31,820 nt of DNA from positions 1-31,820 of the IMG/VR virus record IMGVR_UViG_3300022859_000149. One strand, 5' to 3'. The translations under genes were made by a program, and so were the position numbers. This stretch comes from a virus. The notes under the pieces were generated by a model. It was not told the DNA's origin. It ran no database searches and worked only from the letters and a program-made list of their open reading frames with translations. Of the stretch, positions 14,763 through 28,880 are shown piece after piece (position 1 is the stretch's first letter; the number at the start of each line of letters is the position of its first letter).

Positions 14763-15185
14763 TTAAGCGGCGCGTGTCGCGGCGATCGATTGTTTCAACC
14801 AGTTTCCCGCCGTCTCAGCTAACTGCACGGGCACAGCGTTTCCTAACTGCCTCAAACTCTCCGACCATGAAGCCGGGAACAGGTAGTCATCCGGCATCCC
14901 AACCAAGCGCGCGGCCTCGCGGATCGTGAAATAGCGGACCTTGCCGTTGTCCTCGACAAGCATGTTCTCGCCGCCGGGGACGCCGTGATTGCCCGCCTTC
15001 AACGCCTTGGCAGGTTTGTCCAATGGGCTCCCGGTGTGCCCCTGATAGACGCGGGCTCCCGGCTGCATGACGTGATTCTGCTTGCCGTTCGGCTGGCCCA
15101 GGCCGTGTAGTGCATCGCGCGTTGTCACCCAAGACAAGCCGGGAGGTGGCTGCGATTGCTCGCTAAGCACCGCGACAACAAGCGC
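14763..15185 (-). pseudogene. C-terminal stump of a cytosine-5 DNA methyltransferase
   Basis: The minus-strand frame encodes only the last third of a C5 methyltransferase: PPPGLSWVTTRDAL, then ARVYQGHTGSPLDKPAKALK (target-recognition/motif IX zone), FTIREAARLVGMPDDY and LRQLGNAVPVQLAE (motif X). Motifs I-VIII, including the catalytic PCQ, are absent. The open frame extends upstream to 15389, but that part looks like the antisense of a membrane protein. The stump differs in subfamily from the intact enzyme at 15579, so it is a remnant of an earlier cassette rather than a local duplicate. Confidence 0.65.
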
Positions 15186-15246
15186 GTTTGAAGTCTCCGA
15201 GGCGAAGTTCCTTCGGCAAACTTTTGCGAACATATCGTTCGCAATT

Positions 15247-15420
15247 TTGACCGCAATCATCGCAATCATCGTACTCGTTGTCGCTCTGTTTTTTGATGGC
15301 CTTGCGCTACAAATAGTCTCAGCGGTCTTAATCTTTTTATTGGCCAACTTCGTGCTAACCATGCTGATGACTGTGAAGCGTATCCACATTGCGCTTTCGA
15401 GTAGATTTCTCAGAACTTGA
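15247..15420 (+). CDS. Small two-TM membrane protein or fragment
   Basis: The plus frame from about 15190 to 15420 encodes two hydrophobic helices (ILTAIIAIIVLVVALFF and IVSAVLIFLLANFVLTMLM) followed by a basic tail. It is lower in GC than its surroundings. No ATG or GTG begins the plausible part: TTG 15247 is the only internal start, while the frame is open back to 15082 across the antisense of the methyltransferase stump. It may be the cut 3' end of a transferred membrane-protein gene. No function can be assigned. Confidence 0.35.
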   Translation: MTAIIAIIVLVVALFFDGLALQIVSAVLIFLLANFVLTMLMTVKRIHIALSSRFLRT

Positions 15421-15578: not shown

Positions 15579-16856
15579 ATGAAATCAGACCTCGACGCGC
15601 TGAACCTCATCACCGACAAGGTGCTGGGGTATCGGCGCGACCAAGCAGAGCCGAAGCACAAGGCCCCAGCCGGGCCAGCGGCGGACTTCACCTTCTATGA
15701 GTTTTTCGCGGGTGGCGGGATGGTCCGGTCGGGCCTTGGCCTCAATTGGGAGTGCCTGTTCGCCAACGATTTCGACTTCAAGAAAAGCGCCGCCTACGCC
15801 GCTAATTGGGGTGACGGCGAACTGGTCACCAAGGACGTTGGCAAATTGTCGGCAAGGGAAATACCGGGCCGGGCTGATCTCGTTTGGGCGTCATTCCCGT
15901 GCCAAGACCTGTCGCTTGCCGGGATGGGTGCGGGGCTAAAGGGCGACCGCTCAGGAACCTTCTGGCCGTTTTGGCGCTTAGTGAAGAATCTGGCTGCCGA
16001 GAAGCGCGGGCCTAGCGTGATTGTGCTGGAAAACGTCTGCGGCACGCTCACGTCGCATGACGGGAAGGACTTCCCCGCCATTGCCGATGCGTTGGCGGAT
16101 AGCGGGTATCGGTTCGGTGCGATGGTGGTCGATGCGGCGGAGTTTGTTCCGCAGTCGCGCCCCCGTCTGTTCATCATCGCGGTAGCCAAGGGCCTCGCGA
16201 TCCCGGAAGGGCTTGTGGCTCCCGAATCTTCGCTGCTGTGGCACAGCAAGGCCCTCCAGGTCGCGCACTTGCGCCTCAAGGGTAAGGCCAAGCAGCAATG
16301 GCTTTGGTGGAAACTTCCGGCACCGCCGCGAAGAAACACGCGCTTTGCCGATTTCGTGGAAGATGACCCCGCCAGCGTCTCCTGGCATACGCCGGAAGAA
16401 ACCGAGCGCCTTCTCGGCATGATGAGCGACTTAAACGAACAGAAGGTTGATGACGCCAAGAAAAGCGGTCAATTGTTGGTTGGAACCGTCTACAAACGGA
16501 CCCGCCTCGACAACAAGGACAAGAAGAAGGTGCAGCGGGCAGAAATCCGGTTTGACGATATAGCCGGGTGTCTCCGGACTTCGACGGGCGGTTCCAGTCG
16601 CCAACTCATTGTCGTGGTGAAGGGCGATGAAGTGCGCTCCCGGCTCCTGTCCAGCCGCGAGGCGGCCCGGCTCATGGGGTTGCCGGATGAGTACAAGTTG
16701 CCCAGAAGTTACAATGAAGCGTACCATTTGGTCGGGGACGGCGTAGTAGTCCCCGTGGTGCGGTATCTGGCCGAAAATCTGCTAGAGCCCATCGTGCTGA
16801 GCCACCAGCCAAAGGGTGCCAATGCCAGCCGTAATACCGTGCGAACAAGACATTGA
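15579..16856 (+). CDS. DNA (cytosine-5-)-methyltransferase
   Basis: 425-aa modification enzyme that transfers a methyl group from SAM to C5 of cytosine. It has all main motifs in order: FFAGGGMVRSGL (motif I, residues 42-53), FPCQDLS (motif IV, catalytic Cys108), VLENVCG (motif VI, 149-155), PQSRPRLFII (motif VIII, 191-200) and a motif X-like VGDGVVVPVVRYL near the end, where GD replaces the usual GN. The recognition sequence cannot be read. It overlaps the endonuclease gene by about 35 nt, so they form a type II cassette. With the endonuclease apparently inactivated it would act as an orphan methylase protecting phage DNA. Confidence 0.85.
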   Translation: MKSDLDALNLITDKVLGYRRDQAEPKHKAPAGPAADFTFYEFFAGGGMVRSGLGLNWECLFANDFDFKKSAAYAANWGDGELVTKDVGKLSAREIPGRADLVWASFPCQDLSLAGMGAGLKGDRSGTFWPFWRLVKNLAAEKRGPSVIVLENVCGTLTSHDGKDFPAIADALADSGYRFGAMVVDAAEFVPQSRPRLFIIAVAKGLAIPEGLVAPESSLLWHSKALQVAHLRLKGKAKQQWLWWKLPAPPRRNTRFADFVEDDPASVSWHTPEETERLLGMMSDLNEQKVDDAKKSGQLLVGTVYKRTRLDNKDKKKVQRAEIRFDDIAGCLRTSTGGSSRQLIVVVKGDEVRSRLLSSREAARLMGLPDEYKLPRSYNEAYHLVGDGVVVPVVRYLAENLLEPIVLSHQPKGANASRNTVRTRH

Positions 16857-18181: not shown

Positions 18182-18345
18182 CGTGACTCCTTCGCCGGGA
18201 TCCGCGCGCCGGCATTGCCGCACTTCGGGCATTTGGCGTTGACGTGATTCGGGTACTCCGCGTCGCGATAGGCCCAGCCGAACAGGCGCAGGCAGGACGT
18301 GCACTCGAGCCATATGGTGCGGAGCCCCGTTCGGTCGACGCTCAT
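18178..18345 (-). CDS. 55-aa zinc-ribbon protein
   Basis: Small ORF reading MSVDRTGLRTIWLECTSCLR, then a second CxxC as KCPKCGNAG. The two CxxC pairs (residues 15-18 and 40-43) form a zinc ribbon. It starts at 18345 directly on the stop of the Sak4-like gene (TGATG) and ends overlapping the next ATG. The coupling on both sides and the two motifs make it convincing in spite of its size. Function unknown; such proteins are common near phage recombination genes. Confidence 0.7.
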   Translation of the reverse strand: MSVDRTGLRTIWLECTSCLRLFGWAYRDAEYPNHVNAKCPKCGNAGARIPAKESR

Positions 18346-19397
18346 CAGACCAGCTCGCCCTGCGTATCGGCATCGGCCTGGGCACCCGGATCGTCGTCGA
18401 TCGGCGGCGCTTGGTCCTCGACACCCTCATCTTCGGCGAGTGATGCGGTGTCGGCGTCGATTGCCATCTTGTTGAGGCGTTCTAGGTGCGGCTTTAGGAA
18501 GTCGATCTGCGCCGGCTTCAGCTGCTGTTGCCAGCTTTGCCACCGACTGTAGCCCTCGGCAGCGACTTCCTCGGCGCGCTGGAGCAGTTTCTCGCCGGCA
18601 CTCTGGGCGCCGCTTGATGTCTGACCGGCTGGCGCGTCGGTGGTCGTCGACGCTGCGGCCTGCCCGTGGTGGATTGCCGCGAGCTTCCGGCCGTGCTCGC
18701 GGGTGATCTGCACGCCGGCCTTGAAGACGTCGTGGTACTGGATCGAGAGGGCCTTGGCCGTCCATTTTGGTACGCCGGGGGCCTCGGGATCCAAGACCGC
18801 GAGGAAGTCGAACTCGTGCCAGATGGACGAGTCCATGATCGGCAGTGTGCCGGTGTCGACGACCTCGTCTTTTGAGCCGTCGCGCGTCTGCACCTTGACC
18901 ATCTTCTTCTTCGGCTTTGCCCGCAGGCAGATGATGACGTGCATGTCCGCCTGCTTGGCCTTTTCGAAGAGGCGCCACAGTTTGATCTTCGGGGCCTTCC
19001 ATTTGTGGAACGGCACGTTGTCGCCGGACACGCCGGCCGACGCCTGATCGAGGACACCGCCGTCCCCGTCCCATGCATGTGAGCCCGAGTCGATGATCAA
19101 ACCGGCGAGGCCTTGGGCCTTTGCGTCGTCGATCGCTCTTTCGTATTTCTCCTGGGTGTATGGCGCATCCAGGCTCGAGTAGTCGAAGTCGAAGCCCTTA
19201 TCGCCGAGGCGGTCCTTGTGGTAAGCGGCACCGCGTCCGCCCTCAGTGTCCGCCAAGCCCCAGCGCTTGCCGCCGCACAGTCCATCCATCAGCAGCATGG
19301 CGGTCCAGGTTTTGCCGGTGCCGGTCATGCCGCCGATCGAGGCGAACAGGTAGGGCTTGAGGTCGGGCGGGGGTGGTCCGTATCGCTGCACGCTCAT
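18345..19397 (-). CDS. Sak4-like RecA-fold ATPase (putative ssDNA annealing/recombination)
   Basis: 350-aa AAA/RecA-fold ATPase. Walker A GGMTGTGKT lies at residues 22-30, a Walker B-like LIIDSGSHAWDG near 100-111, and ADTEGGRGAAYH follows a pattern common in phage Sak4/AAA_24 proteins. The last about 100 residues are acidic and variable, ending DDPGAQADADTQGELV, possibly a partner-binding tail. It lies downstream of the exonuclease and Rad50-like ATPase, so the three probably act in DNA end processing and strand annealing. No Red-beta, RecT or Erf homologue is seen, which leaves this as the likely recombinase. Confidence 0.7.
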   Translation of the reverse strand: MSVQRYGPPPPDLKPYLFASIGGMTGTGKTWTAMLLMDGLCGGKRWGLADTEGGRGAAYHKDRLGDKGFDFDYSSLDAPYTQEKYERAIDDAKAQGLAGLIIDSGSHAWDGDGGVLDQASAGVSGDNVPFHKWKAPKIKLWRLFEKAKQADMHVIICLRAKPKKKMVKVQTRDGSKDEVVDTGTLPIMDSSIWHEFDFLAVLDPEAPGVPKWTAKALSIQYHDVFKAGVQITREHGRKLAAIHHGQAAASTTTDAPAGQTSSGAQSAGEKLLQRAEEVAAEGYSRWQSWQQQLKPAQIDFLKPHLERLNKMAIDADTASLAEDEGVEDQAPPIDDDPGAQADADTQGELV

Positions 19398-19406
19398 GGG
19401 GACTCC

Positions 19407-20717
19407 TTACTCTGCGGCCTGGGCTTCGACCGGGGGGTTGGCGAGGTTGCCGTCCTCGATTACGAACCCGACCTTGCCGTCGTTCCTAACGACTTCAATC
19501 CACACCTGGAAATCGTGCTCGTCCGCCATCTCGCTGATCAGCTTCATTGCGTCGTCGTCCAGCAGCGAGCCGTCGCGCACGCGGATCACCTTGAGCTTCG
19601 GGCTCATTGCCATGGCGATCGCCAGCGACACCCGCAGTTGCTCGGCGTCGCTGGCCTGGGCGAAGGGAATTTCGTTTAGGAGGATCTCGCGCGTGCCGAA
19701 GCCGATGCCCTCGACTGGCAGCTTGGCCGATCGTATGGCGTCGACCTTTTGCTTGTCGCGCTGGTTGATCGTCTCCGAGAGCCTCTTGGCTTCCGCCTCG
19801 TGTTCCTCGGCATCGGCAAGGTGTAGCGCGCGCGCTTTTTTGGCCGTGACGTTCTTGTTCGTCGTTCTAGCTGCCGCGATCCTTTCACGCAGCGCTCCGG
19901 TGTCGACGGGTTCGGGCAGTTCCTCCGCGTCCTCGATTTTCTTGTCGATCGCGGCTGCGGCCTCCAGGGCAGCTGCAGATTGCTGGTCAAAGTCGTCGGC
20001 TTGGGCCCGCAGTTCGGCGGCGCGCCCCTCGTGGCGCTCGGCATCCGCCCTCTTGTCGACGGCATCGCGCTGCGCTTCCTCGCGGCGCGCCTTGCGCTGC
20101 TCGATCGTAGCGTTGTGTTCGCCGGCGTTCTGTAGTTCGTCGACTAGGTCCGACTCGTCGACCGGTTCGTCGGGCGTGTCCGGTGGCACCTGGATCAGCC
20201 CGGCCGCGTTACGCAGCTCTTTGGCGGACCGGTTTTCGTCGGTCCGCTTTGCGTAGTCGCCGCGGTTTTTGCCCTCGATATCATCGAAGTCGATTCCCGG
20301 GACGAGCGTTTTCAGGGTGTCGAATTGGTCCTCGGGCCTGGCTCGCGCGAATTCCAGCGGGTCGAAGGTGAGGGCGCCGAGCAGGTCGTCGATCATCCGC
20401 TGCGGCGATGGGAACCTGGCGCCCTCGGCATTCTCGACGCTGATCGACGTCGTGTAGCCGCCGGCCTTGCCCTCGCGGAAGGTGCGGGTAACGACGAGCT
20501 CGCCGAGGTCGAGCCGGATCCGCGCCTTGTCGGCGCCCTTGCGTATCGGTGCGGCTTGAATGTGCGACGCGCCATCGAGCGCCCACCACAGCGAATCTAG
20601 GACGCTGCTCTTGCCGGCGCCGTTCTTGCCGGTTATCTGGACCATGTTGCCGTCAGGCCTGATCGTGACCGCGACCAGCCGCTTCACATTCTCCGCTTGC
20701 AGTTCAATGATCTTCAC
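19407..20717 (-). CDS. Rad50/SMC/RecF-like coiled-coil ATPase
   Basis: 436-aa ATPase. Walker A TGKNGAGKSSVLD lies near residues 29-41, the middle is a long coiled-coil (about 200-320), and an ABC-type signature region follows (FAQASDAEQLRVSLAIAMAM, near 362-381), then a Walker B-like VIRVRDGSLLDDDAM. GTG 20717 is chosen because it overlaps the exonuclease stop (GTGA) and has GGAGG upstream; an earlier GTG at 20744 would add 9 residues. It probably works with the adjacent exonuclease, like Rad50 with Mre11 or SbcC with SbcD, although no Mre11 homologue is seen. Confidence 0.75.
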   Translation of the reverse strand: MKIIELQAENVKRLVAVTIRPDGNMVQITGKNGAGKSSVLDSLWWALDGASHIQAAPIRKGADKARIRLDLGELVVTRTFREGKAGGYTTSISVENAEGARFPSPQRMIDDLLGALTFDPLEFARARPEDQFDTLKTLVPGIDFDDIEGKNRGDYAKRTDENRSAKELRNAAGLIQVPPDTPDEPVDESDLVDELQNAGEHNATIEQRKARREEAQRDAVDKRADAERHEGRAAELRAQADDFDQQSAAALEAAAAIDKKIEDAEELPEPVDTGALRERIAAARTTNKNVTAKKARALHLADAEEHEAEAKRLSETINQRDKQKVDAIRSAKLPVEGIGFGTREILLNEIPFAQASDAEQLRVSLAIAMAMSPKLKVIRVRDGSLLDDDAMKLISEMADEHDFQVWIEVVRNDGKVGFVIEDGNLANPPVEAQAAE

Positions 20718-21661
20718 TCTGCTGCCTCCATCGGTGCCTGCCACTGCAGGAGCCGTTCATAGGTTTCGGGATCCACTTCGCGTCTGATTTCGCGGTCGAG
20801 CCATGCCGACTCCGCCCACCTGGGCATTTCGATCCAGGCGATGCGCGACGCGTAGCCGGGCCATTCATTCGTTCGCAGGCCCTTGCGCCAGAGCTCGAGG
20901 GCGTGGTCGACCTTGCGCTCGGCGAGGTCCATGACGGCCGGCGGCAGGCCGATCACCGAGAGGGCGTAGGGCGGGGTGTTTTCCTGGACCACGAACAGGA
21001 AGGTCGGGTTGTCGATCTTGAGCACCGCGCGAATCCCGCGGCGGTACCAAGCGGCCTGCACCTCGAACCCCATGTTGAAGGCCAGGCGTTCGACACCGCC
21101 TTCCGGGTTGGCGCTGGCACCGGTGGACTTATAGTCGGGGAACACTCTGACCATCGGGCCGTCGGTGTGGTGCCAGTCGAGCCGGCAGCGAGCCCAGGTG
21201 TCGCCCTCGCGCCAGATCAGCGTGACCTCGGGCTGTCCGTTGAGAAAGGCGCCGGCCATTTGCTCGTGGGCATCGAGCTGGGCCCGAGCGGCCGTCGCCA
21301 TGGCGCGGACGTTTTCGTATTGGTGCTCGAGCAGCGGGATGAAGCCGTTGGCGTAGGCATCGTCCTTGAACTCGCGCGCGTCCTTCTTCTTCCAGTCCTT
21401 GAACTCGCCCGGCGCGATCGCGAATTGCCGATCGTCATGCAGCAGCATCGAGTGTGCTGCCGAGCCCAGGTCGAACATCTGACGGTTCTCGGGCTCGTGG
21501 TCCGGGTTGAGTTTTGGATGCGAAGTCCAGGCATGCCGGGGCGACTTGCCGAGCAGCGTCTTGATCAGCGACGAACTGAGCGATGGGGCCGGACCGACCG
21601 GGTCAGCATGGTAGTCGTCGTGGGAGAGTTCCGGGTACGCGCCCGGCTCGGTGATCTTCAG
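20714..21661 (-). CDS. PD-(D/E)XK exonuclease (RecE/YqaJ-like), CTG start
   Basis: 315-aa nuclease. The first part (GAYPELSHDDYHADPVGPAP, then SLSSSLIKTLLGKSPRHAW) is the hallmark of DUF3799-like phage exonucleases. Catalytic segments are GEFKDWKKKDAR early, EVTLIWREGDTWARCRLDW, then VFPDYKST, where Asp and Lys complete the PD-(D/E)XK core. The conserved N-terminus lies upstream of the first ATG (21478). The only start that includes it is CTG 21661, which overlaps the previous stop (CTGA) and has AAGGAG 8 nt upstream; a TAA precedes it in frame. With the ATPases downstream it forms a recombination module. Confidence 0.75.
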   Translation of the reverse strand: MKITEPGAYPELSHDDYHADPVGPAPSLSSSLIKTLLGKSPRHAWTSHPKLNPDHEPENRQMFDLGSAAHSMLLHDDRQFAIAPGEFKDWKKKDAREFKDDAYANGFIPLLEHQYENVRAMATAARAQLDAHEQMAGAFLNGQPEVTLIWREGDTWARCRLDWHHTDGPMVRVFPDYKSTGASANPEGGVERLAFNMGFEVQAAWYRRGIRAVLKIDNPTFLFVVQENTPPYALSVIGLPPAVMDLAERKVDHALELWRKGLRTNEWPGYASRIAWIEMPRWAESAWLDREIRREVDPETYERLLQWQAPMEAAE

Positions 21662-22505: not shown

Positions 22506-22696
22506 GCCGCCTCCGGTTCGGGCGGTTCGATGCGTGTCAACAGGTGGTCGATCATTTCGACACGACGGGCGCGGGAATCAGGAGACGGCGGGTGAACCAT
22601 GTCGTCGCGGTACTGCCGGAGCGCGGCGACAATATCGGGATCGACGGTTTGACGGGCACTACCGAGCGGGCGGGGGAACGGGGTGACGCCGGTCAT
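22502..22696 (-). CDS. 64-aa hypothetical protein
   Basis: Start ATG 22696 overlaps the upstream stop and the end overlaps the next start, both as ATGA; the longer frame to 22780 is inside the neighbour. It begins MTGVTPFPRPLGSARQTVDP and carries a helix (DIVAALRQYRDDM) and a second (RRVEMIDHLLTRIE). No family is recognised. Confidence 0.55.
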   Translation of the reverse strand: MTGVTPFPRPLGSARQTVDPDIVAALRQYRDDMVHPPSPDSRARRVEMIDHLLTRIEPPEPEAA

Positions 22697-23100
22697 TCCT
22701 CTGCCTCGACAAGCGGGCGACCGAACAGTTCTCGTGCGAACGAATCGTTGTACGCATGGATCTGATGCGGGCGAGCCCACGCCGACAGACGCGCCGTGTC
22801 GTCAGGCGTGATCGTTTCCGGCGAATAGCTGCCGCGATGAAGATGAGTTGCTGGCACGTGCGCCATGCCGTCGCGCACAAAGCCGAAGTCCAGCAGCGCG
22901 TGGAACTTCCCCTCGCGGAAGGCGGCGACGGCTAGATAGTCATGATTCCAGGGCCGCTTCGATTCGGCGTGTACCAAGTCGCCGTGGCGCACCAGCCGCA
23001 GGACGTACGGCTTCCCGGCGCTGCTGACGAAGGTGATTTCCGTTGCGCCGTTGCAGGCGGAGCAGGGCGGGAAGTCTTTGTCATCTTCGGTGAGGGCCAT
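22693..23100 (-). CDS. First gene of the left early operon, zinc-binding hypothetical
   Basis: 135-aa protein with a CSACNGATEI N-terminal CxxC near residues 13-16, then strands and a helix-rich end. Start ATG 23100 has GGAG about 9 nt upstream. It is transcribed from the promoter overlapped by operator Op1, so it should be expressed as soon as repression is lifted. Only one CxxC pair is visible, so a complete zinc ribbon is uncertain. Role unknown. Confidence 0.6.
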   Translation of the reverse strand: MALTEDDKDFPPCSACNGATEITFVSSAGKPYVLRLVRHGDLVHAESKRPWNHDYLAVAAFREGKFHALLDFGFVRDGMAHVPATHLHRGSYSPETITPDDTARLSAWARPHQIHAYNDSFARELFGRPLVEAEE

Positions 23101-23131: not shown

Positions 23132-23160
23132 TACTTACAGAACACGTAAGTTTAGGTCAA
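23132..23160 (-). promoter_or_regulatory. Left early promoter with operator Op1
   Basis: On the minus strand TTGACC (23160-23155) is separated by 17 nt from a weak TAAGTA -10 (23137-23132). The perfect palindrome ACTTAC-N7-GTAAGT (23133-23151) covers the spacer and -10, so a bound repressor would block RNA polymerase. Confidence 0.6.
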
Positions 23161-23505
23161 CTGGAAACTTGCATATTCCGTAAGTTCTTCTACAAACGCA
23201 GAAAACCAGCGGCTAGGAGGGCCAACTAGTGGGTTCGAATCGTGAAGGGGTTGCGGCAGGTGGTCGCAGCGGTAGGTCTCGAAGATGCGGCCGGAGGCGT
23301 CCGGCACCGACTCGCTCGACAACTTCATCGTGTCCTGGTCCTTGCAATGGCAGCAATTCGTCGGCGGTTCGGGAACGGGCGCACCGGCGGTTTCGATCCG
23401 GGAGACAGTAGCCTTCGTCGTTTCGATCCGCCCTGCCAACTTGGCTTGGGTGAAGTCGAGATAATCCCGCCATTCCTTGATGTAGTGTGTCGGCACTTTT
23501 TCCAT
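23152..23505 (-). CDS. XRE-type repressor candidate with Cys cluster
   Basis: 117-aa protein. Residues 7-38 (HYIKEWRDYLDFTQAKLAGR and RIETTKATVSRIE) form a clear Cro/CI-type helix-turn-helix. Then follows a CCHC segment (residues 51-54) and a later YRCDH, which may bind zinc. No LexA-type Ser/Lys peptidase domain is present, so SOS cleavage is unlikely. ATG 23505 is preferred; GTG 23496 and ATG 23529 are alternatives. The gene lies between two operator regions, the position of CI in lambda. Its end is close to Op1. It could instead be a repressor fragment with a recombined C-terminus. Confidence 0.6.
   Translation of the reverse strand: MEKVPTHYIKEWRDYLDFTQAKLAGRIETTKATVSRIETAGAPVPEPPTNCCHCKDQDTMKLSSESVPDASGRIFETYRCDHLPQPLHDSNPLVGPPSRWFSAFVEELTEYASFQLT
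23167..23185. promoter_or_regulatory. Operator Op2
   Basis: ACTTGC-N7-GTAAGT, one mismatch from the perfect 19-bp palindrome, centred 34 bp from Op1 (about three helical turns), compatible with cooperative repressor binding on one face of DNA. Confidence 0.6.
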
Positions 23506-23516
23506 TTGACACAGTG

Positions 23517-23535
23517 TGTTACGGGACATGTAAGG
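23517..23535. promoter_or_regulatory. Operator Op3
   Basis: TGTTAC-N7-GTAAGG keeps the inner TTAC-N7-GTAA of the palindrome with changes at the outer positions. It lies 12 bp upstream of the repressor start and overlaps the alternative start at 23529, so autoregulation of the repressor is likely. A further half-site GTAAGT is at 23553-23558. Confidence 0.5.
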
Positions 23536-23570
23536 TGCCCATACCAGAAACGGTAAGTTTGGGCTTGCGC

Positions 23571-23595
23571 GAGACTTACGGTTTATGTAAGTCTC
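23571..23595. promoter_or_regulatory. Operator Op5, extended 25-bp palindrome
   Basis: GAGACTTAC, 7-nt spacer, GTAAGTCTC: nine matching bases in each arm, the strongest operator in the window. It ends 6 bp before ATG 23602 of the Cro-like gene, so it must overlap that gene's promoter or short leader. Op1 and Op2 form the left group, Op3 and Op5 the right group. Confidence 0.75.
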
Positions 23596-23601
23596 GCCGC
23601 C

Positions 23602-23796
23602 ATGAAGCTTTCCAATTACCTGGTCAAAAATGATCTGACCCTCAAGGCGTTCGCCGAACAGATTGGTCGAACCGAGGCAACCGTGAGCCGTCTTGCGCGC
23701 GGGAAGCACCGGCCCGACTGGAAAACCATCGAAGCCATTGAGAAGGCCACGAACGGCAAGGTCCGCGCCAACGACTTTTTCGAAGCGGCGGCATGA
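23602..23796 (+). CDS. Cro-like regulator
   Basis: 64-aa protein that is essentially one helix-turn-helix domain: LKAFAEQIGRTEATVSRLAR near residues 14-33 followed by IEAIEKATNGKVRANDFF, typical of Cro-type repressors. It is divergent from the repressor gene and preceded by the 25-bp palindrome. No Shine-Dalgarno is visible and the distance from Op5 to ATG is only 6 bp, so the mRNA may be nearly leaderless. Its stop overlaps the next ATG (ATGA). Confidence 0.8.
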   Translation: MKLSNYLVKNDLTLKAFAEQIGRTEATVSRLARGKHRPDWKTIEAIEKATNGKVRANDFFEAAA

Positions 23797-24365
23797 AGGC
23801 CGATTCCTCCATCGGGGTGCCTCCCTCTCCGACGGCTGGGCCAGGGGAGGGGACTGGCTCCGCATCGCCGCCCCTCCCCAAGCTCCAACGTGACGATGAT
23901 TGTAATTCGCTTCATGCGTCCAACGTGGCGGCCGCTGTGGATGCTTTCATGCAACCTGGCGTGGACGTTTGCACAGTTCTGCACCGCCACCTGATCGGCC
24001 CGGACGCCATCGCCAACATCAAGCGCGTTGCCTTTGCGATGAAGCGGGCTGAACGGACGCTCTACGCTTGGGCGGAGGGCGCCAACCAGATTCGCGGTGA
24101 CGATCTCGTGCTGCTCATGAGGCTGATTCCGGGGGTCGCCCGCGACCTTCTGGCCCCGACCCTCCAGGTTGTCGAGGTACCCGGTGGCGCGTCGTTCGAC
24201 GGGCTGCACACCAGCCGCATCATCAGCGAGGCACAGGCCGAGTTGGCCATCGCGATGGAAGACGGCGTGGTCGACGACGAAGAGCGCCCGCGCGTGCACA
24301 ACCGGCTGGTGAGGCTGGTCAACCGGACATTCCTCGATGTGCGTGTTCTTGGCGGTGGCGCCTGA
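23793..24365 (+). CDS. CII/CP76-like regulatory protein
   Basis: 190-aa protein second in the right operon. After a disordered Pro/Ser-rich start it has a helical domain: VLHRHLIGPDAIANIKRVAF then MKRAERTLYAWAEGANQIRG, which looks like the DNA-binding part of phage CII (CP76) regulators, and a C-terminal helical region rich in charged residues. Such a protein would influence the lysis/lysogeny choice. The family call is by pattern and gene position and is tentative. Start ATG 23793 overlaps the Cro stop. Confidence 0.45.
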   Translation: MKADSSIGVPPSPTAGPGEGTGSASPPLPKLQRDDDCNSLHASNVAAAVDAFMQPGVDVCTVLHRHLIGPDAIANIKRVAFAMKRAERTLYAWAEGANQIRGDDLVLLMRLIPGVARDLLAPTLQVVEVPGGASFDGLHTSRIISEAQAELAIAMEDGVVDDEERPRVHNRLVRLVNRTFLDVRVLGGGA

Positions 24366-24613
24366 TGGGCGCCCCGGCGCGCGCACGACTTCCCAACCGG
24401 CGCGGATGCGCCACGGTGGCGGTCACCTATCGCGGCACCGAATACCCGCTGTCCGTCGGCTACGACGAGGACGGGCGCTGCAAGGAAGTGTTCGTCGCGG
24501 GCGCCAAGCAGGGGGCCGACGTGGAGTTTCTCGTCGACGACTTCTGCACCGTGCTGTCGATCGCGATGCAGCACGGTATCTCCGCGAAGGCGAGCGCGGG
24601 TGCTGATGGCTAA
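24365..24613 (+). CDS. TSCPD-like domain protein
   Basis: 82-aa protein. LPNRRGCATVAVTYRGTEYP, then a GYDEDGRCKEVFVAG strand-turn and LVDDFCTVLSIAMQHGI helix resemble the TSCPD domain found at the C-terminus of B12-dependent ribonucleotide reductase; stand-alone copies are frequent in alphaproteobacterial phages. Its function there is unknown, possibly nucleotide-metabolism or regulator binding. The C-terminus is short compared with similar proteins. It overlaps the next gene by 8 nt. Confidence 0.6.
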   Translation: MGAPARARLPNRRGCATVAVTYRGTEYPLSVGYDEDGRCKEVFVAGAKQGADVEFLVDDFCTVLSIAMQHGISAKASAGADG

Positions 24614-24812
24614 CCTCACGATCCGCAACGTTGACGATGCCGTCGTCGCAAAGCTGAAAAGCCGCGCGAAGGATCGGCAGCGGTCGTTCGAGGCTGAGCT
24701 GCGCGAGATATTGAAGGCAGCTACCGGCATCCCCGATCCGATTGCGGTTGAGGCCGCTGGCGTGGCCCTTGATGCGTTTCTTGAGCGCGCGCGCACTGAG
24801 GGCTGGCTATGA
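24606..24812 (+). CDS. FitA/VapB-like ribbon-helix-helix protein (orphan antitoxin type)
   Basis: 68-aa protein starting MANLTIRNVDDAVVAKLKSR: the N-terminal strand ANLTIRNV, then helices KLKSRAKDRQRSFEAELREI, is the FitA-type ribbon-helix-helix of antitoxins. GTG 24600 could add two residues. The next gene is not a PIN-domain toxin, so this antitoxin-like protein stands alone. It could be a plain repressor, or neutralise a host VapC/FitB-type toxin. It overlaps both neighbours. Confidence 0.65.
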   Translation: MANLTIRNVDDAVVAKLKSRAKDRQRSFEAELREILKAATGIPDPIAVEAAGVALDAFLERARTEGWL

Positions 24813-25135
24813 GCAACGGCGCCAATTTCGCCGAGCAATGCCGACAGCTCACGCTCGACGGCAACCCCCCCGACGATATTGCAACGCTCACTTATCGAAC
24901 CGTGCGCTACGTCATGAAGGTGCAGAACCGCCTCGTTGACGAAGGGCGCATGTCCGCCAAGCACCTTGCCGACGCGCGAGCCGCAACCACCAAGAGCGTC
25001 GGCGAGAAGCGCTGCCTGAAATGCCGTCAGGCGTTCCGTCCCGCGCACAGCGGTTTATTCGTTTGCGGCTCGTGCAAGAAATCGTGCGACTGGCACAGCG
25101 GCGGCAGCTATAGCTGCGGCGAGGCACTGCGGTGA
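24809..25135 (+). CDS. Hypothetical protein with C-terminal zinc ribbon
   Basis: 108-aa protein. The N-terminal half is helical. From residue about 69 there is KRCLKCRQAFRPAHSG, then FVCGSCKKSC, two CxxC pairs making a probable zinc ribbon, ending CGEALR. Possibly nucleic-acid binding. Start ATG 24809 overlaps the previous stop. Unrecognised family. Confidence 0.6.
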   Translation: MSNGANFAEQCRQLTLDGNPPDDIATLTYRTVRYVMKVQNRLVDEGRMSAKHLADARAATTKSVGEKRCLKCRQAFRPAHSGLFVCGSCKKSCDWHSGGSYSCGEALR

Positions 25136-25233
25136 AAACCGCTGTGTCGCTCGCAATCCTGCTGACCCTGCTGGCCTGCATCTATGGGCCAAAGAACCCG
25201 GACGACGTGATGGCCGTTGTGGGGATGTTCTGA
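25132..25233 (+). CDS. 33-aa hydrophobic peptide, lipoprotein-like
   Basis: Short ORF from GTG 25132 (GTGA overlap) encoding MKTAVSLAILLTLLACIYGP and 13 more residues. The LLAC box after a hydrophobic stretch resembles a lipoprotein signal. It is positioned correctly for coupling on both sides, and ATG 25233 begins immediately at its stop. Too short for certainty. Confidence 0.4.
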   Translation: MKTAVSLAILLTLLACIYGPKNPDDVMAVVGMF

Positions 25234-25352
25234 TGGTGCAGAACACATCGACGGCGGTCATGCAGCGGCGCCACACTCCGATTCCGCGCGCCGTTCCGCA
25301 AGGGCCAGGTGCAGGCCGACATGCACCACCCCAGACAGCCAAAGGAGATTGA
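25233..25352 (+). CDS. 39-aa hypothetical peptide
   Basis: ORF from ATG 25233 (TGATG overlap) encoding MVQNTSTAVMQRRHTPIPRA and 19 more residues, Pro- and Arg-rich. It is supported mainly by its coupling to the previous ORF and by the lack of another gene here. It could be untranslated spacer before the gene at 25357. Confidence 0.3.
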   Translation: MVQNTSTAVMQRRHTPIPRAVPQGPGAGRHAPPQTAKGD

Positions 25353-25356
25353 TTTG

Positions 25357-25734
25357 ATGCCCAAGAAACAGAACGGCCCCGGCGAGCCGGAAGCATCGCC
25401 AAACACGCAACACAACGTGCAGGCCCGCAAGGACATCATGCGGGAGTGCAAGCAGGTCGCCGACGACGTGGATAAAGTCCGCCTCGATCAGAACAAGATC
25501 ATGGCCGGCGTTCGCGAGCGTCTGCGCGAGGCCGGGATCAGCGTCGAGGCGTTCAACTACGCCCGCAAGGTTGCGAACCGGGATTCGGACGATAGAGACG
25601 CCTACCTGGAAAACGTCCGCGAATCGCTCCAAGCGCTTGGCGTCGGCATGCAGGGCACGTTCTTTCCCGATGCTGGCGACCGCCCGAAGCGGCCGGCACA
25701 TTTGAGCGAAGTCGAGGGCGCAGCGGCTCACTGA
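25357..25734 (+). CDS. Hypothetical helical protein, possibly GapR/DUF2312-like
   Basis: 125-aa protein. ATG 25357 has AAAGGAGA about 7 nt upstream, preferred over the upstream frame at 25309. The central helix (RKDIMRECKQVADDVDKVRL) and AGISVEAFNYARKVANR resemble nucleoid-associated GapR-type sequences, which bind AT-rich DNA ahead of replication forks, but the match is weak. The C-terminus is disordered. It precedes the resolvase gene by an overlap (ATG 25734). Confidence 0.45.
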   Translation: MPKKQNGPGEPEASPNTQHNVQARKDIMRECKQVADDVDKVRLDQNKIMAGVRERLREAGISVEAFNYARKVANRDSDDRDAYLENVRESLQALGVGMQGTFFPDAGDRPKRPAHLSEVEGAAAH

Positions 25735-26255
25735 TGCGCGTCCTCGCCTTGGATATTGCGACCGCTTCGGGATGGGCGACGGATGGCTGCGCCGTCTGCC
25801 CGCCCCGATTCGGAACTTGGCGCGTGCCCGGCGGTACAGCGAACCTCGGGCACGCCATTTTTCGGTTCAATCAGTGGCTCTACGAGATCGCCGCCACCTA
25901 TCAGCCCGACATCATCGCCTACGAGGCGCCCTTCATGTCCTCGGGCGGCGGAAAGACCAATCCGCAGACCATGTTCCTACTGATCGGCCTGTGCGCCGTC
26001 GCCGAGTCCGTTGCCTACGCCCACAAGGTGCGCGCGATCCAGGCGCATGTGCAGACCGTGCGCAAGCACTTCGTGGGGCATGGCCGGCCGGACAACCCGA
26101 AGAAGGTGGTGGCCGCGCGCTGCCGACAACTCGGCTGGGACGTGCGCGACGATAACGCCGCCGACGCTTGCGCAATTTGGACATGGGCCAAAGCGACGCA
26201 TGACCGAACTTTTCGCCTCGAAACCGGGGCGTTGTTTGCCGGGGCCGCGCCATGA
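25734..26255 (+). CDS. RuvC-like Holliday junction resolvase
   Basis: 173-aa RNase H-fold nuclease. Acidic residues of the active site are visible: Asp7 in VLALDIATASGW, Glu64 in IIAYEAPFM, and Asp140/Asp144 in DVRDDNAADACAIW. It would cleave branched DNA made during recombination or replication before packaging. Length fits the phage RuvC-like family. ATG 25734 overlaps the previous stop and the stop overlaps ATG 26252. Confidence 0.8.
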   Translation: MRVLALDIATASGWATDGCAVCPPRFGTWRVPGGTANLGHAIFRFNQWLYEIAATYQPDIIAYEAPFMSSGGGKTNPQTMFLLIGLCAVAESVAYAHKVRAIQAHVQTVRKHFVGHGRPDNPKKVVAARCRQLGWDVRDDNAADACAIWTWAKATHDRTFRLETGALFAGAAP

Positions 26256-26470
26256 GTACGGTTTTGGACTTCCCGCGTGGCACCCGCGATCTCGACGCCG
26301 CCGATACGGCGCGCCTGGCCGCTGCCTACCGGCTCGATCTTGCCGTCGCCGCCTGTGTTGCCGGCGACCGGGACAAGGCGCTACGCCTGCTCATGGCCGC
26401 GCAAGGCTGCATAGCCACCGGCGGGCTAACTTGGGCCGCCGCCCTGCGAGTTCCGCAGGTGCCCGCATGA
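26252..26470 (+). CDS. Small hypothetical protein
   Basis: 72-aa alanine-rich helical protein: ARLAAAYRLDLAVAACVAGD, then a second helix KALRLLMAAQGC. No family recognised. It is coupled to the resolvase and helicase by ATGA overlaps, so co-translation with replication genes is likely. Confidence 0.55.
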   Translation: MSTVLDFPRGTRDLDAADTARLAAAYRLDLAVAACVAGDRDKALRLLMAAQGCIATGGLTWAAALRVPQVPA

Positions 26471-27831
26471 GGAACCTCGAGGCAGAACAAGCATTCCTTG
26501 GCGCGCTCCTCGTCAACAACGACGTGTTGTGGCGCGCCGGCGACCTGACGGCGGACGATTTCTCCGAGCCGCTTCATGCGCTCATCTTCGAGACCGCGCG
26601 CGTCCTGATCGAAAAGGGCGAGGCCGCCAACCCGACCGCCCTGCGCCCTCATCTGGCGACCGACCCCGATGTCGCCGCAATGAATCGTGACACCGGCCGC
26701 GACTATCTAGCGTCGCTTCATTCCGGCGCCACCACGATCAGCGGCGCCGATGGTTATGCCAGCATCATCCGTGGGCTGGCCGTGCGCCGCCGCCTTGTCT
26801 CGCTGTGCGACGAAACCGCCGCGGAAGCGCGCGACGTTCGCCCCGACGTGGATGCGGATCAGCTCATTGCGCGTGCGATGGCGCGGATCGATAGCATCGG
26901 CGGGGGCGGCGGGGGCGATCTGGAGTCCTTGGGCGTTGCTGCCGAGCGTGCCGTCGCTCGTCTCTCCGCCGAAACGGCGCAGAGCGGCACGACGACCGGC
27001 ATTCCCGATCTTGACGACCGCCTCGGCGGGCTGCGGCCCGGTGATCTGGTTGTCCTCGCCGGCCGCACCGGGATGGGCAAATCCGCCCTTGCCGAGCATA
27101 TCGCCGTGGCCGCGAGCGACCAGGGGCCTGTCGCCATGTTTTCGCTCGAGATGGATGCCGAGGATCTGTCGCGCCGGGAGCTCGCCGCGCGCACCGGCAT
27201 CGCCTACGAGCGGATCAGCCAGCGCCGGGTTGGCCCTCACGAGCGCGCCTCGCTGGCTGACGCTGCCGCGGCCATGGGCCCGCTGCCCGTCTACGTCAAC
27301 CGCATCTATGACCTCACCGCGTCGCAGATTAAGGCGCGCGCGCGAGGGCTCAAACACCGTCGCGGCGGCCTGGCCCTCGTCGTGGTCGACTATCTCCAAC
27401 TGGTCCGGCCCGACAGCACCTACCGCGGCAACCGGGTGCTCGAGGTGGCCGAAATCACCCGCGCCCTCAAGTTGATGGGCCAGCAGCTGGAGGTGCCCGT
27501 GCTGGCGCTGTCGCAGCTCAACCGCGAGCTGGAGGGCCGTGACGACAAGCGTCCTCGCCTGTCCGACTTGCGCGAATCGGGGGCGATCGAACAGGACGCC
27601 GCGGTCGTGCTCTTTGCTCACCGCGAGGCCGCCTACATGGAACGCGACGGGGCGCGCAAGAACCAGACCGCGGACGATTTCATGGCCGATCTCGAAGCCG
27701 AGAAACGCCTGATCGAGATCATCGTCGCCAAGAACCGGCACGGCAGCACCGGCGCGGTCAAGGTCGCCGCGGACATGTCGACCAACAGATTCGGGCCGCG
27801 GGCGACGCGGCAAGGGGCGATCACGCTATGA
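26467..27831 (+). CDS. dnaB: DnaB-like replicative helicase
   Basis: 454-aa helicase that would unwind the phage replication fork. The N-terminal domain starts NLEAEQAFLGALLVNNDVLW. The ATPase domain has Walker A GRTGMGKSALAEH (residues 199-211), SLEMDAEDLSRRE (226-238), Walker B VVVDYLQLV (305-313), sensor-type PVLALSQLNRELEGR (344-358) and the QDAAVVLFAHRE segment with the arginine finger region. A Gly-run linker lies near 145-150. ATG 26467 overlaps the preceding stop; the frame is open upstream, but the family start matches this ATG. Confidence 0.9.
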   Translation: MRNLEAEQAFLGALLVNNDVLWRAGDLTADDFSEPLHALIFETARVLIEKGEAANPTALRPHLATDPDVAAMNRDTGRDYLASLHSGATTISGADGYASIIRGLAVRRRLVSLCDETAAEARDVRPDVDADQLIARAMARIDSIGGGGGGDLESLGVAAERAVARLSAETAQSGTTTGIPDLDDRLGGLRPGDLVVLAGRTGMGKSALAEHIAVAASDQGPVAMFSLEMDAEDLSRRELAARTGIAYERISQRRVGPHERASLADAAAAMGPLPVYVNRIYDLTASQIKARARGLKHRRGGLALVVVDYLQLVRPDSTYRGNRVLEVAEITRALKLMGQQLEVPVLALSQLNRELEGRDDKRPRLSDLRESGAIEQDAAVVLFAHREAAYMERDGARKNQTADDFMADLEAEKRLIEIIVAKNRHGSTGAVKVAADMSTNRFGPRATRQGAITL

Positions 27832-28880
27832 GCCGCTCCTACGGGAAGATGCTGTCGTCCCTGTGGACGTCCTCGCGCAAGTTTCAGGGCATCCGCTCCG
27901 ACGACGCGGCGCGCCTGCTCTACTTCTACCTGCACACCTGCCCGCACGGGAACAACGTCGGGTGTTTCGTGATCCGGCCGGAATACATTGCGGCGGATCT
28001 CGGCTGGGAGCAGGACAAGATCGATCACGCCGTCGAGGCGCTCGTCGGCGCGGCGCTGATCGAATGGAACACCGACGAGCACGTCGTGCGCATCGTGGAT
28101 GCGATCGACAAAGACCCTCCGACAAATCCCAGCCACGCAGCGGCGATGGCCAAGACGGTTTTGTCGCTGCCTGACACGGTTGAAAAGCTCAATTGTCTCA
28201 GGGAATTGTCCGCACAAAGGCAAGCCAAGACGCTTAACAGTCTCCGAGAGGAAATTGCTTTGCTGAGCAGCCACTTAGGACACCCTCTCGACAGCCTCTC
28301 GACAGCCTGTGCGCAGGGTGTCCGCCCTTACCTTACCTTACCTAACCTAAACCTAACCAACCCAACCCAAACCGAAGGGGGTGTGGGGGAAACAACACCG
28401 AGGCGAGCACCGGCGGTACCAGCCGCAGCCAAGACCCTCGATACCGATTTTGACACGTGGTGGCGATCGGTTCCCCTCAAGCGCTCTAAGGGCAAAGCCC
28501 GGGAAGCCTACAAGCGAGTCCGCAAGAAGGCGGAAGCCACGACCTTGTTGGCAGGAATCGAGCGTTACGCACAGGAGGTTGCGGGCAGGGAGCCTAGGTT
28601 TATCAAACACCCGACAACCTGGCTCAACGCCGAATGCTGGCTCGACGAGGACAGTCCCGCAACGAAGCGGGAGACGCCGGTCAACGGGCTCAAGGTCTCT
28701 CCCGACGTGTGGGCAGAGCGCGTCCGTGGTTGGTGGAACGGGGGCGATACCAAGCCTGATCGCTGGATCAAGCTGCAATGGGGAAACATGCCGAACGAGC
28801 GCTTTGCCCAGGTGCCTGCGGACGTTGTGCTCGCGGTGACCGGCAAGAAACCGGAGGAACTCTTGGAAACGTTCCTATGA
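27828..28880 (+). CDS. Replication initiator-like protein (O/DnaD-type)
   Basis: 350-aa protein after the helicase, the classic position of lambda O-like initiators or loaders. The N-terminal winged-helix-like region reads SRKFQGIRSDDAARLLYFYL and DKIDHAVEALVGAALIEW. The middle is disordered and contains a repetitive stretch (residues about 167-182) read from an iteron-like tract. The C-terminal domain, DFDTWWRSVPLKRSKGKARE and WLNAECWLDED, is common in phage replication proteins. It would bind the internal repeats and load DnaB. Starts at ATG 27828, overlapping the helicase stop. Confidence 0.7.
   Translation: MSRSYGKMLSSLWTSSRKFQGIRSDDAARLLYFYLHTCPHGNNVGCFVIRPEYIAADLGWEQDKIDHAVEALVGAALIEWNTDEHVVRIVDAIDKDPPTNPSHAAAMAKTVLSLPDTVEKLNCLRELSAQRQAKTLNSLREEIALLSSHLGHPLDSLSTACAQGVRPYLTLPNLNLTNPTQTEGGVGETTPRRAPAVPAAAKTLDTDFDTWWRSVPLKRSKGKAREAYKRVRKKAEATTLLAGIERYAQEVAGREPRFIKHPTTWLNAECWLDEDSPATKRETPVNGLKVSPDVWAERVRGWWNGGDTKPDRWIKLQWGNMPNERFAQVPADVVLAVTGKKPEELLETFL
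28326..28373 (+). repeat. CCTTA/CCTAA/CCCAA tandem tract, candidate replication origin
   Basis: Within the initiator gene: CCTTA three times, CCTAA three times (one extra A), then CCAA and CCCAA twice, ending ACC. The complementary strand is G-rich with runs of GG and GGG separated by two or three bases, able in principle to form a G-quadruplex. Repeats inside O-type genes commonly serve as origins. Confidence 0.6.

Follow-up and report, generated by a model that had tools for sequence, protein, structure and literature searches.

Background

In phage lambda, CI and Cro share palindromic operators of about 17 bp at OL and OR, with about 23-24 bp between sites. Another described phage that bears on the present case, Acetobacter phage phiAP1 (LC644972), is temperate and integrated and carries more than one Xre gene; the paper reporting it does not use the word "operator" (PMC8566455).

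We analysed the 31,820 nucleotides of the viral record IMGVR_UViG_3300022859_000149 (the whole stretch is called "the window" below). The record probably lacks several kilobases, namely the part with terminase, portal and capsid genes. A contig of 24.9 kb, IMGVR_UViG_3300023296_001219, matches the window at 100% identity for 12 kb or more and represents the same phage. Judging from the DNA, we put the probability at roughly 0.9 that a group of palindromes in this window are the operators of a lambda-like switch. The likeness would lie in layout and logic and not in a lambdoid repressor.

As in lambda, repressor and cro genes are divergent, palindromic operators are shared by both early promoters, and a leftward recombination operon is paired with a rightward replication operon. 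A frame of 117 codons for a CI-type XRE repressor (23152..23505, minus strand) and the gene of a Cro-like regulator of 64 amino acids (HTH_26/HTH_3; 23602..23796, plus strand) diverge from the region that holds the sites called Op3 to Op5 here. To the left, the first gene under the left promoter PL encodes 135 amino acids of no known family (22693..23100, minus strand). The leftward early block (18345..21478, minus strand) comprises an exonuclease VIII-like gene (20714-21478), an SMC/RecF-like ATPase gene (phrog_1499; 19407-20744) and a gene for a phrog_1366 protein (18345-19397). To the right, early genes including those for a RuvC-like resolvase, a DnaB helicase and a replication initiator occupy 23793..28880 on the plus strand. 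This gene order is that of a lambda-type early region. Unlike lambda, the window has two plus three sites (one of them a half-site), the spacing is 34 bp instead of about 23-24 bp, the operator sequence is unrelated, and searches of Pfam, PHROGs and NCBIfam show no C-terminal peptidase domain with RecA-stimulated self-cleavage in the 117-aa CI.

Palindromic sites in the window

The palindrome ACTTAC-N7-GTAAGT occurs perfectly at 23133..23151 (Op1) and 23574..23592 (Op5), as the initial annotation had reported. Its two variants and its half-site were also found again. Op2 (23167..23185) has one mismatch to the palindrome, while Op3 (23517..23535) has three, only one of which falls in the 17-bp core CTTAC-N7-GTAAG. 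The half-site, Op4 (23541..23557), reads ATACC-N7-GTAAG, and its GTAAGT hexamer lies at 23553-23558. Op3 is directly 5' of the CI start codon. The spacing of 34 bp given earlier for Op1 and Op2 was measured again, and it is likewise 34 bp for Op4 and Op5. One detail needs correction: the arms of Op5 are 11+11 bp (23569-23597) and not 9+9 bp. They end four bases 5' of the cro ATG.

The palindrome is concentrated here and not scattered over many unrelated places. With at most one mismatch, the core is present in the 31,820-base window only as Op1, Op2, Op3 and Op5, four sites compared with a mean of 0.18 and a maximum of 2 in 200 shuffles. The hexamers ACTTAC and GTAAGT occur seven times in the whole window, and all but one of these occurrences fall in 23133-23592. 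Could such sites have arisen by chance in an AT-richer intergenic stretch? Some sort of recurring inverted repeat is frequent in shuffled sequence, and two identical inverted repeats of any sequence within 600 bp were seen in 12 of 300 shuffles. At a loose setting (3 mismatches in 12) there are 6 sites where 2.8 are expected, and 8 of 100 shuffles reach 6. Since this count alone is ordinary, the statistical weight rests on the cluster of sites. We then searched freely for two identical inverted repeats of any 6-Nk-6 form accompanied, within 600 bp, by a third copy that deviates at one position or none. One of 300 shuffles of the whole window contained such a cluster, and none of 3000 shuffles of the local 720 bp did. 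The same sites are moreover kept in two relatives, G001 and L087 (see below). This conservation already refutes a chance origin, which we regard as vanishingly improbable.

Promoters and a proposed mechanism

Both early promoters were assigned from the DNA pattern. For PL, the putative -35 box TTGACC (23155..23160, minus strand) lies between Op2 and Op1. The candidate -10 element TAAGTA (23132..23137, minus strand), a weak match formed by an operator half-site, follows 17 bp past it. Op1 thus spans the spacer and the -10 region, while Op2 is 5' of the -35 box and falls within the 3'-terminal part of the CI frame. For the right promoter PR, the putative boxes are TTGCGC (23565..23570, plus strand) and TAAGTC (23588..23593, plus strand), the latter again formed by an operator half-site. 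Read in the direction of transcription, PL is CTTACGGAATATGCAAG-tttccagTTGACCtaaa-CTTACGTGTTCTGTAAG and PR is ATACCAGAAACGGTAAG-tttgggcTTGCGCgaga-CTTACGGTTTATGTAAG; placed in register, they are identical at 33 of 53 bases. In both, two sites flank a TTGnnC -35-like box, and the one downstream lies over the spacer and the -10 element. A strict sigma-70 scan returned no promoter match, and both -10 boxes are weak. With this assignment of the PR -10 element, the cro transcript would be leaderless or nearly so.

The following mechanism can be proposed. The palindromes would be the common operator of two divergent XRE-family regulators, each 17-bp site taking one regulator dimer, and the phage would belong to the alphaproteobacterial short-CI group. 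At leftward PL and rightward PR, two sites 34 bp apart would flank the TTGnnC box; as the downstream site covers spacer and -10 element, its occupation should block polymerase. Cro made from PR would lower transcription from both early promoters and, by acting at Op3, from the repressor promoter as well. CI, where functional, would keep PL and PR shut. The pairing of proteins with sites, the activity of the promoters and the repression itself are predictions.

The inverted repeats might instead work as RNA hairpins or terminators. The 11+11 bp arms of Op5, directly before the cro start codon, are what one would look for in such a case. The scan gave no terminator-like site, however, and there is no Rfam match. 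Sites are also present upstream of the -35 boxes, and the conserved unit is the 17-bp core with its N7, not a longer stem. We consider a role at the RNA level very improbable, and operators remain our preferred reading.

Relatives with the same operator

The core was found at the same two places in two other phages. The first, G001 (IMGVR_UViG_3300045282_000100), was retrieved with a Cro alignment in which the operator was not used; its Cro is 61% identical to that of the window. One core lies at 1072-1088, eight bases before the cro ATG. Towards the opposite end of the contig, a leftward promoter carries two more (39788 and 39823, with a spacing of 35 bp). G001 has no further core site with at most one mismatch in its 40.6 kb (shuffle mean 0.105). 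As the ends of this contig nearly repeat each other across about 165 bp, the genome is probably circular, which places the operator pair left of ci. The same Cro alignment against genome_contigs returned mainly fragments similar to ribosomal protein L13 that share RGKHRPDW, and these were discarded.

The second, L087 (IMGVR_UViG_3300003407_000054), was retrieved by a promoter-operator pattern scan of viral contigs. Its left promoter carries a core pair at 2045 and 2080, 35 bp apart; sites at 1022 and 1101 lie around a divergent CI/Cro pair, and no others with at most one mismatch occur in its 14.7 kb. Since it was the left promoter that led to L087, the independent part of this evidence is formed by the CI/Cro-region sites. 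The operator-pair pattern in viral_contigs gave the same phage and four other contigs. The promoter-operator pattern also matched in a set of related contigs, L089-L092, from another phage group. There the match stands where a portal-like gene begins, with a terminase-like gene on its other side, and we regarded it as a chance occurrence.

Hence the initial assignment of Op1 and Op2 to the left early promoter and of Op3 and Op5 to the divergent region has matching places in both relatives, where the position of Op1 is also kept. The same sites at the same places in two distant relatives argue that the switch is real, and also that it is of a known kind. Both relatives share with the window CTTAC-N7-GTAAG at PL and PR and a homologous DNA-binding half of CI. 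They differ from it in that extra genes separate ci from PL and that their CI proteins (108 and 113 amino acids, respectively) have retained helices 4-5 as well as the C-terminal helices; G001 also has an integrase.

As for the proteins, the Cro recognition helix EATVSRLARGKH is identical between window and G001, and the CI recognition helices are ATVSR or ATISR across window, G001 and L087. The Cro helix of L087 differs (KPPTITRIIAGQ) despite the same operators, for which reason the operator sequence may be tied more closely to CI than to Cro.

Same layout with other half-sites

Among cultured phages, phiAP1, Rhizobium phage RHph_N2 and Bradyrhizobium phage ppBjS10J-1 each encode a short homologue of the G001 CI. 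Like the window, phiAP1 has a short CI (120 amino acids) divergent from cro, a PL pair 34 bp apart with TTGACC between, and a half-site upstream at PR; its cro ATG is 7 nt past the operator. Unlike the window, its half-site is TTCGC. The upstream PR site is only a half-site in the window, G001, L087 and phiAP1 alike. RHph_N2 and ppBjS10J-1, and with them Paracoccus phage vB_PthS_Pthi1, whose short CI is a different one, also resemble the window in having a short CI/Cro pair, a common palindrome at PL and PR, and TTGnnn upstream of the downstream site. They depart from it in their half-sites, which are GTCAC in RHph_N2 (33 bp between sites), CCTACC in ppBjS10J-1 (about 45 bp) and GGAAT in Pthi1, where GGAATATTCC stands beside TTGAC at both promoters. 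In a post hoc comparison of chosen loci, as distinct from a survey, TTG was found 5-11 bases before the downstream site in 14 of 14 promoters of seven phages. The switch appears to change its operator sequence between phages and to keep its geometry. If this is true, immunity groups would be predictable from sequence.

Not all members of the CI family fit this description. The CI/Cro intergenic regions of Rhizobium phage RHph_I1_23 (L011, 5870-5975) and PBC5 (L094, 2340-2480) contain three direct TTCAGTCA repeats and no palindrome, which we would interpret as a different operator style within the same CI family.

Another possibility is that the palindromes belong to a host regulator, CtrA for example, and are exploited by the phage. 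The CtrA site is TTAA-N7-TTAA; its N7 spacing is common to the window palindrome, whereas the sequence differs. Use of host CtrA by alphaproteobacterial phages is reported (PMC9437464) and would lend this idea some appeal. Nevertheless, in three phages the sites are present only at the switch promoters, and the half-site varies by phage while the geometry is constant, as expected for phage-borne regulators. A host regulator as the owner of these sites is therefore highly unlikely, and we return to CI and Cro as the putative ligands.

The altered repressor and the question of lysogeny

The shortness of the repressor had been seen as an obstacle to recognizing the circuit. In this group it is normal, most short-CI relatives being 104-113 amino acids long and without a cleavable domain. 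The actual anomaly is that the window CI matches its family for only about 43 codons and then continues into an unrelated tail containing cysteines. Residues 4-41 form an XRE helix-turn-helix homologous to the short CI of G001, L087 and RHph_I1_23 (CI scores 25.2 bits, just below the Pfam gathering threshold of 27), and nucleotide similarity to G001 ci, which covers helices 1-3, ends at codon ~43. Helices 4-5 (MLEALADAL...PADLL) are absent from the window ci both in the alignment and in all three frames, and the C-terminal helices of the short-CI family have no counterpart in the alignment. A frameshift was rejected, as the other frames do not code for the missing helices. A search for close CI relatives gave only a 100% identical contig in viral_contigs and none in genome_contigs.

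Residues ~43-117 are unrelated to those relatives and carry CxxC...C, with CCHC and YRC in this tail of ~75 residues. They gave no phage match and only non-significant plasmid matches. Identification of the tail as a zinc ribbon was considered and dropped, there being no family or structure match; AlphaFold pLDDT values of 44 (window CI) and 49 (G001 CI) are too weak to settle the fold. The frame ends ...ELTEYASFQLT-stop, in codons that double as Op2 and the PL -35 box, and its stop codon lies immediately next to Op1.

The simplest reading of these observations is a deletion by which the first part of ci became joined to the DNA on its left. It may be imagined that in a temperate ancestor the first ~43 ci codons were joined in this way to downstream DNA running into PL. 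The operators would then serve only Cro and the phage would be virulent, with clear plaques. The abrupt halt of the nucleotide match, the lack of matches to the tail, and the final codons made of Op2 and the -35 box all agree with such an event. So do the genes that stand between ci and PL in G001 and L087, of which the window has none, and the lack of a tyrosine or serine integrase in the window. However, the ci frame is unbroken for 117 codons with a GC3 of 0.69, similar to the 0.71 of cro, the tail could be a genuine module of zinc-ribbon type, and an integrase could sit in the several kilobases probably missing from the terminase to capsid side. On balance we find this history quite conceivable, at somewhat less than even odds. 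Rather doubtful, though deserving mention, is a functional repressor of new build: three XRE helices with a cysteine-containing, possibly zinc-binding tail, in which the last codons also serve as Op2 and the PL -35 box and the gene thereby overlaps a promoter under its own control.

What can be said about lysogeny? The 31.8-kb window of this incomplete record yielded neither a tyrosine nor a serine integrase. As G001 does carry an integrase, a loss of lysogeny has to be taken seriously here, with the reservation that part of the genome is missing. The initial annotation held that the palindromes identify the temperate control circuit. This stands as far as a common operator at PL and at the divergent repressor/Cro region, kept in two relatives, is concerned. 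It does not extend to a working temperate circuit, for the CI keeps three helices only, its tail is unrelated and no integrase turned up in the window. Sites and genes are laid out as in a temperate switch; the phage itself may or may not have kept the ability to form lysogens.

Possible uses

The circuit is of a type already known; new here are its operator sequence and a repressor that is either damaged or rebuilt, and the novelty is modest. The operator and its layout (TTGnnC between sites 34-35 bp apart, with the downstream site over the spacer) could be used for finding immunity regions in uncultured alphaproteobacterial phages; used as a DNA pattern alone, they have already brought in L087 as a third phage. 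The altered CI offers a test case for a temperate phage that is possibly turning virulent with its Cro circuit kept.

Other features of the window

Some further features of the window can be mentioned. On the minus strand, 14763-15389 encodes just the C-terminal part of a Dcm-type DNA methyltransferase, with a match confined to positions 409-498 of phrog_116, and adjoins a full-length methyltransferase at 15579-16856. Among the rightward genes, 24600-24812 (plus strand) encodes a FitA-like ribbon-helix-helix protein, for which a partner toxin is not evident. The replication initiator gene (27828-28880) contains a degenerate tandem repeat, CTTACCTTACCTTACCTAACCTAAACC, at 28327-28350 that is possibly part of an origin.
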